The translations under genes were made by a program, and so were the position numbers. The notes under the pieces were generated by a model that saw nothing but the letters and a program-made list of their open reading frames with translations, had not been told where the DNA came from and made no database searches. Shown piece by piece: positions 26,610-28,683 of a DNA stretch of 42,646 nt; the stretch's first letter is position 1, and every line of letters begins with the position of its first letter. This DNA comes from an uncultured Bacteroidales bacterium (lineage in GTDB: Bacteria > Bacteroidota > Bacteroidia > Bacteroidales > F082), in the NCBI GenBank assembly GCA_946407975.1, contig CAMJQC010000021.1, positions 1-42,646 of the forward strand. Direction: 5' to 3'.

Positions 26610-26617
26610 CAAAAATA
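26610..26617 (-). promoter_or_regulatory. -7 box TATTTTTG for argS
   Basis: Exact TAnnTTTG match on the minus strand, 19 bases before the argS ATG. It supports the start at 26590. Confidence 0.65.
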
Positions 26618-26649: not shown

Positions 26650-26657
26650 TATTTTTG
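26650..26657 (+). promoter_or_regulatory. -7 box TATTTTTG for the pyrB leader
   Basis: Exact TAnnTTTG match on the plus strand in the argS-pyrB divergent region. Transcription would start near 26661, about 150 bases before pyrB and 4 bases before the leader ORF. No clear -33 element is visible at the right distance. Confidence 0.65.
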
Positions 26658-26664
26658 CATTCCG

Positions 26665-26769
26665 ATGATTCGTTTAAAAAAGTCACCGGATAGTCTTATT
26701 AAAAAGGAATCTTCTGATTCCTTAACATTGAATTTCAAATTTTTACATACCGACGGTCAAAATTGTTGA
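26665..26769 (+). CDS. Putative pyrB leader peptide (34 residues)
   Basis: The frame opens with ATG at 26665, just after the expected transcription start, begins MIRLKKSPDSL and stops with TGA at 26767-26769. The stop lies in the 3' arm of the terminator stem (26766-26774), so a ribosome reaching it would prevent the stem from forming. The peptide has no recognisable domain; the value is in its position. This layout parallels the pyrL leader of Escherichia coli pyrBI (44 codons, end overlapping the attenuator). There is no ribosome binding site, but bamD and the DUF6913 gene here also start within a few bases of their -7 boxes. The frame could still be chance: it is short. Confidence 0.5.
   Translation: MIRLKKSPDSLIKKESSDSLTLNFKFLHTDGQNC
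26704..26723 (+). other. Pause-hairpin candidate in the pyrB leader
   Basis: An 8-bp stem AAGGAATC with GATTCCTT and loop TTCT, about 45 bases after the start of transcription. The next 28 bases are U-rich (including TTTTT at 26740-26744 region), a sequence where polymerase could pause at low UTP, as proposed for E. coli pyrBI. Confidence 0.55.
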
Positions 26770-26782
26770 CCGTCTTTTTTTT
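26752..26782 (+). terminator. Intrinsic terminator (attenuator) before pyrB
   Basis: A perfect 9-bp stem (GACGGTCAA 26752-26760, TTGACCGTC 26766-26774) with a 5-base loop is followed by eight T residues (26775-26782), 29 bases before the pyrB ATG. No gene upstream on the plus strand needs terminating, because argS is divergent, so it acts on the pyrB leader or on a small RNA. Confidence 0.85.
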
Positions 26783-26811
26783 ATTCGCAACAACATTAAA
26801 AACATATCTTT

Positions 26812-27732
26812 ATGCCAATCTCTCTTAAAAACCGCAGTCTGATTTCCATCAGCGATTACACGCCTGAAGAAATCTGTCATGTCCTGGACATCGCAGAGGA
26901 TTTCGAGAAAAACCCGCATCAGAATCTACTGAACGGGCGCATCATCGCCTCGTTGTTTTTCGAGCCTTCGACCCGAACCCGTTTGAGCTTCGAGACCGCC
27001 ATCCAACTGCTTGGCGGCAATGTCATCGGCTTCAGCAGCACGGCAGGCACAAGCATTCAAAAAGGCGAATCGCTTGCCGACACCATCACCATGGTGGCCA
27101 GCTATGCCGACCTGATCGTCATGCGCAACCCCATCGAGGGTTCTGCCAGATTTGCTTCGGAAGTCTCAAAAGTGCCAGTCATCAACGCTGGCGACGGTGC
27201 CAACCAGCACCCCACTCAGTGTCTGCTCGACCTTTACAGCATCCGCAAGACGCAAGGCACCCTCGACAACCTCACCATCACTTTGGTAGGCGACCTGAAA
27301 TACGGCCGCACGGTCCACAGTCTGGTGGAAGCCATGAGCCATTACAACACCAAGTTCAACCTTGTTTCACCTGTAGAGCTAAAACTGCCAAGCGTGGTAA
27401 AGCAGCACATCAAGGATGCGCATTTGGAATACAACCAATACACCGAACTCGAAGACGGCATCCCGAGTGCCGACATCATCTACATGACCCGCATCCAGCG
27501 TGAACGTTTCCCCGATCCTGAAGAATACGAGAAAGTGAAGGACTCCTATGTGCTTCGCAACTACATGCTTGACAATTCAAAACCCAATTGCCGTGTTTTG
27601 CACCCATTGCCACGTGTCAACGAAATCCACGTCGATGTCGATGCCAACCCGAAGGCATATTATTTCCAACAGGCCCAGAACGGCGTCTATGCCCGTCAGG
27701 CACTTATCGCATCAATACTTGGGTTAAAATAA
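26812..27732 (+). CDS. pyrB: Aspartate carbamoyltransferase catalytic subunit
   Basis: The enzyme makes carbamoyl aspartate, the first committed pyrimidine step. The 306-residue protein has the carbamoyl-phosphate site [15 protein letters not shown] (S53-T54-R55-T56-R57), K84 in [10 protein letters not shown], the [16 protein letters not shown] motif, and the aspartate-side HPLPRVNEI. The pyrI gene 483 bases downstream encodes the regulatory chain, so the product is expected to be an allosteric ATCase of the E. coli type. Expression is probably controlled through the upstream attenuator; no clear second promoter lies between terminator and ATG. The pyrB stop coincides with the first base of a heptad repeat. 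Confidence 0.97.
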
Positions 27733-27763: not shown

Positions 27764-28171
27764 ATGGCAAGTTACAAAAGGTTTGAAGATTTACCAATTT
27801 GGCAGGAAGCTCGTGATTTCTCCAAAAAGGTGTTTTGGGCTTCCAAAGAAGGTGAGTTTTCAAAAGAGTTTCGGCTGTGTTCACAAATCCGAGCATCATC
27901 AGGTTCGATTATGGACAACATAGCTGAAGGCTTTGAGAGAAATGGCAATGGAGAGTTCAAGCAGTTCCTATATTATGCAAAAGGATCCTGCGGAGAATCT
28001 AGAAGCCAACTCTACCGTGCGTTTGACTACGGGTTCTTGCCAGAAGAACAATTTGAAGCATTAAAAACTCAGTCAGAAGAAATTTCTAAATCAATTTGCA
28101 GTTTCATCGATTATTTGCAAAGCTCAGAAATGAAAGGAACTAAATACAAGTCTCCAGATGAATCTAAATAG
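27764..28171 (+). CDS. Four-helix-bundle (S23/23S IVS-type) protein
   Basis: The 135-residue all-helical protein has the family's hallmarks. Near the start is YKRFEDLPIWQEARDFSKKV (the usual F..L..W..A..L...VY pattern), then the conserved SQIRASSGSIMDNIAEGFER and FLYYAKGSCGESRSQL, and a final helix. Such proteins were first seen in 23S rRNA intervening sequences of Leptospira and Coxiella and are common as free genes in Bacteroidota; their role is unknown. Here it sits between pyrB and pyrI, which are otherwise adjacent partners. Inverted 7-bp repeats hug the gene on both sides. The surrounding spacers are very AT-rich, unlike pyrB and pyrI. It looks like an inserted cassette that kept the operon reading through. 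Confidence 0.9.
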   Translation: MASYKRFEDLPIWQEARDFSKKVFWASKEGEFSKEFRLCSQIRASSGSIMDNIAEGFERNGNGEFKQFLYYAKGSCGESRSQLYRAFDYGFLPEEQFEALKTQSEEISKSICSFIDYLQSSEMKGTKYKSPDESK

Positions 28172-28215: not shown

Positions 28216-28683
28216 ATGGAAAAAAGAAAAGAACTCATCGTTTCCGCTATTGAAAACGGAACCGTCATTGATCATATCCCTGCCGACAGAGTGTTTCAAG
28301 TCGTCAAAATCCTGGGACTGGAAAAAGTCAACAACCCGATGTATTTCGGCACCAATGTAGAAAGTAAGAAGTACGGCACAAAAGGATTCATCAAAGTGTC
28401 CGACAAATACTTTGCCCCCGAAGAAGTGAACAAAATCGCCCTTGTGGCTCCCACCGCCTCCATCATCGAGATCAAGGATTACGAAGTCATCAAGAAACAG
28501 ACTGCAAGCATCCCGGAAAGCATCGAGCACATTGTAAAATGCTTTAACCCGAACTGCATCACCAATAAAGAACATGATGTGCCCACCAAATTCCGTGTCA
28601 TCAAAGATGCCGAAGGACATATCAAACTGCACTGTCACTATTGCGAGAAGAACACTACCGAAGACAAGATAGAATTCCTATAA
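28216..28683 (+). CDS. pyrI: Aspartate carbamoyltransferase regulatory subunit
   Basis: The 155-residue chain has the allosteric nucleotide-binding domain (1-100; GTVIDHIPADRVFQVVKILG) and the zinc domain with C109, C114, C140 and C143 (KCFNPNCITN; LHCHYCEKN), which contacts the catalytic chain. It confers feedback control by CTP/UTP and activation by ATP in the E. coli enzyme. The start at 28216 follows an AT-rich spacer left by the four-helix-bundle cassette. No promoter box is visible in front of it, so it probably relies on read-through from pyrB. lemA begins 3 bases after the stop. Confidence 0.96.
   Translation: MEKRKELIVSAIENGTVIDHIPADRVFQVVKILGLEKVNNPMYFGTNVESKKYGTKGFIKVSDKYFAPEEVNKIALVAPTASIIEIKDYEVIKKQTASIPESIEHIVKCFNPNCITNKEHDVPTKFRVIKDAEGHIKLHCHYCEKNTTEDKIEFL

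Follow-up and report, generated by a model that had tools for sequence, protein, structure and literature searches.

In the pyrBI operon of E. coli the terminator sits within the leader gene, whereas amino-acid attenuators keep more than 20 bp between leader gene and terminator, and a ribosome halted a few bases ahead of the terminator suppresses termination (PMC4824070, from the part of the text available). According to the accessible portion of PMC5021804, the leader gene pyrL needs tight coupling. In strain MG1655, pyrL is 135 bp in length, holds a terminator with eight T residues and ends 3 nucleotides before pyrB. E. coli keeps UTP attenuation (pyrBI) apart from start switching, which is used by pyrC and pyrD. 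For Bacteroidota, we found no paper on a pyrB or carA leader in the open PMC library, outside which most subscription papers lie. Small-ORF-bearing 5' UTRs reminiscent of attenuation have been described in Bacteroides thetaiotaomicron, with pyrB absent from the main text in the portion accessible (PMC7366714), clues to leader-peptide attenuation before amino-acid operons appear in the available part of a Flavobacterium psychrophilum study (PMC9723704), and pyrB goes unmentioned in the accessible sections of PMC2965389 and PMC3766115. Here we describe a leader upstream of pyrB in a family of Bacteroidales that is probably a translation-coupled attenuator of the pyrBI type.

Leader elements between argS and pyrB

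The window (the whole stretch of DNA analysed, 42,646 nucleotides in length, from an uncultured Bacteroidales bacterium) carries the leader elements listed in Table 1. The -7 box, 34-codon ORF, 8-bp hairpin, U-rich stretch and 9-bp terminator with eight T residues of the initial annotation were all recovered in place, as was the ORF stop within the 3' arm of the terminator, and both Pfam and NCBIfam confirmed that pyrB has a pyrI partner. The divergently transcribed argS is preceded on the opposite strand by a separate -7-like box, indicating that the terminator is not that of the upstream gene, in agreement with the annotated lack of any other client. The 5' hairpin (P1), the fixed pyrimidine-pyrimidine-G (YYG) start sequence and the carA copies were absent from that annotation and were found here.

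Table 1. Features of the pyrB leader and neighbouring genes in the window
Feature	Position	Strand	Basis or remark
-7 promoter box TATTTTTG (TAnnTTTG)	26650..26657	+	Relatives share the box and its spacing to the 5' hairpin
Predicted start region CCG (pyrimidine-pyrimidine-G), predicted +1 at 26662	26662..26664	+	Box placement -12 to -5 in the available part of PMC9723704; YYG in relatives
5'-terminal hairpin P1, leader ATG within 5' strand, one mismatch	26661..26690	+	
Leader ORF, 34 codons from ATG, TGA 26767-26769 within terminator 3' arm	26665..26769	+	
P2, 8-bp hairpin, candidate pause hairpin	26704..26723	+	By reading also in genus relatives
U-rich tract ahead of terminator	26732..26751	+	Sequence; T fraction across 78 leaders
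Intrinsic terminator: stem 26752-26774 (9 pairs, loop 5), T8 26775-26782	26752..26782	+	
-7-like box of divergent argS	26610..26617	-	argS domains confirmed
pyrB, aspartate carbamoyltransferase catalytic chain	26812..27732	+	Pfam PF02729/PF00185; NCBIfam TIGR00670 364.9 bits, cut-off 236.95
pyrI, regulatory chain	28216..28683	+	Pfam PF01948/PF02748; TIGR00240 153.1 bits, cut-off 148.55

The frame of the leader ORF is also listed from a TTG upstream of the ATG in the ORF list of the window. In near relatives of the window's type the ORF is longer, with 47 codons in many, and runs through the terminator; the terminator loop in the window is one base longer than theirs and the stop codon falls within the stem. 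P2 was not aligned by MAFFT across the genus, and its pairing was therefore left uncounted. The fold of the window leader is more stable than that of shuffled sequences (z -3.09), with 1 of 200 shuffles being as good. The TAnnTTTG motif occurs 21 times in the window against 22.45 expected, so the box alone is not beyond chance, and terminator-like sites number 17 in 18 kb against 16.7 expected, with the pyrB leader terminator ranking second among them. Single elements in the window are thus at about chance level, while conservation raises the leader far above it.

A gene for a 23S rRNA intervening-sequence protein (PF05635) lies between pyrB and pyrI at 27764-28171. It looks like an insertion, since a crude motif scan of 45 genus loci located it there in 6 (L002, L003, L005, L006, L011 and L292).

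Occurrence of the leader in Bacteroidales

Of 198 Bacteroidales genomes, 183 have a pyrB of the window's kind (E <= 1e-40); the corresponding counts are 35 of 149 for genomes sampled from the class and, at E <= 1e-60, 112 of 119 for the window's family, whose members are Bacteroidota of guts and sediments. Among the named relatives are Candidatus Limimorpha equi, Candidatus Limimorpha caballi and bacterium F082, with Candidatus Limimorpha being listed as Bacteroidales incertae sedis in the NCBI taxonomy; of the 198 loci assigned to the family, the named ones were placed by similarity and not by taxonomy. Subtracting 66 duplicates, 5 loci without a start found and 3 cut short left 124 unique readable pyrB upstream regions, 112 of which carry promoter and terminator by rule. 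Four more leaders were recognised by eye (L049, L121, L340 and L351), and the remaining regions lack all or part of the unit; pyrB is without a leader in L024, L026, L029, L063 and L296, and partly without it in L031 and L040.

At least one pyrB leader is present in each of the 16 genera, in 15 of them by rule or within the 108-leader set described below and in g261 by eye and by covariance model. This model, built from 32 genus leaders and with weak matches that include chance ones, hit 68 of 80 family genomes (E <= 1), covering 16 of 16 genera. Of 20 regions taken from its further matches, 19 were read and yielded one real leader (L451, at carA); the other 18 proved on reading to be neither carA nor pyrB leaders and were rejected, and L458, at a contig end, falls outside the 19.

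Outside the family, a promoter-terminator unit was found in 8 of 113 pyrB upstream regions of other Bacteroidales, and the first ATG frame extends to within 2 nucleotides of the terminator 5' arm or beyond in 8/8, a count made without control. In outside-family leaders L267, L250, L157, L158, L197, L237, L256 and L259, the ORF reaches the terminator and, by reading, the 5' hairpin motif is missing. The frame end overlaps the pyrB start in L267, and the frame ends directly before pyrB in L250. A simpler arrangement without the 5' hairpin so recurs outside the family, by descent or convergence. Units in only 8 of the 113 regions fall short of demonstrating conservation reaching back to E. coli, whose pyrL was compared by anatomy only.

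Open frame, U-rich tract and terminator

For the reading-frame analysis, promoter and terminator were the sole criteria by which 108 leaders were selected out of 126 unique upstream regions; the frame was ignored, and reduction by 8-mer overlap left 78 non-redundant leaders. The 18 omitted regions, some of them left out only because no start or terminator was picked up by the finder, were redone in the 124-region count given above. The two other frames, which have the same ancestry and the same composition, served as a control. Stop codons in the first-ATG frame amount to 14 in 2464 codons, compared with 163 in 2430 and 154 in 2407 in the other frames. This frame is open to the terminator 5' arm in 74 of the 78 leaders (13 and 25 for the other frames; mean of 20.2, sd 3.5 and maximum of 31 over 300 rounds of dinucleotide shuffling) and through the terminator stem in 67 (8 and 12 for the other frames). 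Of the 78 stops, 32 fall between terminator and pyrB, 11 overlap the pyrB start, 24 are within pyrB, 6 in the stem and 5 ahead of it. Frames stopping early include a shortened genus subclade with 12-20 codons (L034, L036, L043, L044 and L082).

By contrast with this openness, which is kept, the putative peptide is hardly conserved and the substitution pattern is not clearly coding. The pN/pS in the ATG frame is 0.58 versus 0.78 and 0.68 in the other frames for 23 independent pairs, and 0.58 versus 0.91 and 0.55 over all 173 pairs, while leader length differences are not multiples of three (14/77). The check for codon-like substitutions that was proposed with the initial annotation was therefore not borne out; the promoter, the terminator and the open frame are kept in the relatives. 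Because the substitutions are not coding-like, we dropped a function of the peptide as well as amino-acid attenuation, and keeping a readable frame rather than a peptide is what would be expected if the moving ribosome is the effector.

An attenuator of the his/trp kind, sensing arginine or aspartate for example, would likewise place a leader ORF ahead of a terminator, and carA, where copies of the leader occur, also serves arginine synthesis. It is hardly credible here, as no residue in the 78 leaders exceeds 1.3-fold of its shuffled expectation (0.66 for arginine and 1.27 for aspartate), and alternative pairing of the terminator by an antiterminator is at or below chance, with 1 of 78 leaders below 0.05 and a mean percentile of 0.61. 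Moreover, the terminator is inside the frame or at its end and not more than 20 bp beyond, the distance given for such attenuators in the available part of PMC4824070.

The fraction of T in the last two 10-nucleotide bins before the stem is 0.454 and 0.479, compared with 0.246-0.299 further up (78 leaders), and the distance from predicted start to terminator has a median of 90 nucleotides with quartiles of 86 and 92. Comparison between leaders shows the promoter, hairpin, open frame, U-rich tract and terminator, and shows their order. A reading as a pyrBI-type attenuator is supported by the conserved promoter, ORF and terminator, the openness of the frame, the position of the terminator within it and the U-rich tract, together with the lack of antiterminator and of codon excess. 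A comparable leader at carA, which likewise acts early in pyrimidine synthesis, and the lack of any PyrR over cut-off in 60 family genomes also speak for it. From these elements we infer the start site, pausing, coupling and the signal (pausing on UTP and start choice on CTP); of the pyrBI-type attenuator first annotated, the conserved elements, the open frame and the U-rich tract hold, with the sensing of UTP being putative.

In the proposed mechanism, transcription would begin a few bases past the -7 box and a 5' hairpin containing the leader start codon would form, after which polymerase would pass through the U-rich tract before reaching the terminator. When pyrimidine nucleotides are plentiful, polymerase would outpace the ribosome, and the terminator would fold and end transcription. 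At low UTP, polymerase would be slowed in the U-rich tract, allowing the ribosome translating the leader to catch up and cover the terminator 5' arm, and transcription would proceed into pyrB and, in other genera, also into carA. The frame would then have to remain open to or through the terminator, with the peptide itself hardly mattering. If true, pyrBI-type control operates in a phylum far from enterobacteria and requires ribosomes close behind polymerase there, and a conserved, otherwise meaningless open frame through the terminator would provide an evolutionary argument for transcription-translation coupling in Bacteroidota.

The 5' hairpin, the start sequence and proposed pyrimidine sensing

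P1 was called in 63 of the 78 leaders and uncalled in 15, and in 47 of the 77 leaders with any called stem the stem starts 4 or 5 nucleotides after the -7 box. A P1 score level passed by 8.7% of shuffles is reached by 43 of 78 leaders, and swapping 3' sides between leaders with different 5' strands left 24.8% reaching a score of 12, compared with 54 of 78 true pairs. The ATG is associated with P1 in 58 of 63 cases (5' strand in 39, 3' strand in 11 and loop in 8); its place within P1 varies between clades while the association persists. A pair count in the 32 genus leaders showed that pairing (91.1% versus 89.6%) and covariation score (0.228 versus 0.187) both beat 500 of 500 shuffles, with no excess of pair types (13 versus 13.8 in shuffles) and no clear excess of pairs changed on both sides (4 versus 2.9).

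Such conserved pairing with changed sequence could be read as a binding site for a trans-acting protein that decides termination, like PyrR in Firmicutes. We regard this as very unlikely, given that none of 60 family genomes has a PyrR match over cut-off (weak matches in 47, the best at 34.4 bits against a cut-off of 138), that the Rfam PyrR site scores 15.5 bits on the other strand of the leader against a gathering score of 54, that alternative terminator pairing is not above chance, and that an open frame would be needless. At gathering level Rfam matched three tRNAs only in the window, and under a lax threshold none of 15 matches on the leader reached its own gathering score.

In 76 of the 78 pyrB leaders, for which promoters were chosen without YYG preference, YYG occupies nucleotides 5-7 after the box. 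Among 219 other ORFs that have a box at 25-75 nucleotides, 12 show the same motif, and it follows 165 of 993 boxes in all loci, leaders included; outside the family it occurs at 9 of 55 pyrB promoters (Fisher p 0.011 versus the 219), the nine including three hand-added Bacteroidaceae loci. A search with the start-sequence pattern matched in 51 of 60 genomes, and among 30 loci read, hairpin plus terminator was present only in L383 and L397, both pyrB. Given that the -7 box occupies -12 to -5 in the accessible part of PMC9723704, the first Y (nucleotide 5 after TTTG) is the predicted +1. Start nucleotides in B. thetaiotaomicron are 45% A and 41% G in the available part of PMC7366714, and with 86% purine a pyrimidine start would be unusual. 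Moving the start from nucleotide 5 to nucleotide 7 would weaken the predicted hairpin from a mean of -5.7 to -2.6 kcal/mol, with a median predicted stability loss of 3.6 kcal/mol against 0 in the control, and an energy change at -2 or below is predicted for 69% of leaders versus 5.8% of the control. We infer a possible pyrC-like start switch at the predicted start.

In the pyrB upstream region of L031 the attenuator is gone and the 5' hairpin remains, now immediately before the pyrB start, which would correspond to a simple arrangement of the pyrC kind.

The start switch could also do all of the sensing, with pausing in the U-rich tract playing no part. Ample CTP would then favour a start at the first pyrimidine, so that the full hairpin hides the ATG and the terminator acts, while at low CTP a start at the G two bases on would open the hairpin and let the leader be translated. 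The near-invariant YYG, its retention in 6 of 6 family pyrB lacking the attenuator or its terminator, the predicted loss of hairpin energy and the unusual pyrimidine start speak for this alternative; however, start sites are only predicted from sequence, P1 is uncalled in 15 leaders and the U-rich tract is left unexplained, and we consider it unlikely as the sole sensor.

Second covariance-model matches in the genomes led to carA. CarA is present in 49 of 70 family genomes and 14 of 16 genera, and in g250, g252 and g254 model matches lie, by position, directly upstream of CarA matches. Of 30 carA loci, 29 were readable; the leader is present by rule in 22 of these (L421 being doubtful) and by eye in L442 and L444, and is missing in 5, 4 of them from genus g249. 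The leader frame at carA has 19 stops in 603 codons compared with 30 in 591 and 33 in 586 in the other frames, and is open to the 5' arm in 14 of 22 leaders versus 7 and 10, a weaker effect than at pyrB. YYG is found in 15 of the 22, a count biased since the promoter was chosen with YYG preference, and shifting the start from nucleotide 5 to 7 is predicted to cost 2.8 kcal/mol. No such leader was found at pyrE in 20 loci read, of 30 over-cut-off matches.

In the family's pyrE upstream regions (L468-L487), the ATG lies 3-6 nucleotides after TTTG in 13 of 20, as if the mRNA were leaderless. In the window's genus (G000-G019), the carbamoyl phosphate synthase small subunit is below the NCBIfam cut-off in 20 of 20 genomes while pyrB is kept, in a check that was positive in 14 of 14 control genomes and in which only 5 of the 20 genus genomes are at least 90% complete.

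We tentatively propose, as a possibility short of an even chance, that one leader contains two pyrimidine sensors in series, with CTP being sensed via the start and the hairpin over the ATG and UTP via the wait in the U-rich tract. Both would feed one terminator, and copies of the leader would govern carA and pyrB together. If the pyrBI-type attenuator works as proposed, carA and pyrB would form a pyrimidine regulon for which no dedicated regulatory protein was found, and the 5' hairpin at a pyrimidine start makes a second, separable prediction.

Control of pyr genes through termination, as proposed here, is shared with the PyrR attenuators of Firmicutes, which differ from the leaders of the window's family by the latter having an open leader frame and neither PyrR over cut-off nor a PyrR site over gathering score. 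As in E. coli pyrBI/pyrL, the promoter is followed by a leader ORF, a U-rich tract, a terminator with eight T residues inside the frame, pyrB and pyrI, and the leader frame ends at or near the pyrB start. The family's leaders differ from E. coli pyrBI in their promoter (TAnnTTTG), in the fixed YYG start and in the 5'-terminal hairpin that contains the leader ATG; their start codon lies 4 to about 25 nucleotides from the predicted transcript end, and carA is preceded by another copy of the leader. A predicted pyrimidine start followed by G, and a 5' hairpin dependent on the first bases, are features resembling start-site selection at pyrC and pyrD of E. coli and Salmonella. There, the hairpin acts on the translation of pyrC or pyrD itself, whereas in the family's leaders it would act on a leader ORF that precedes a terminator.
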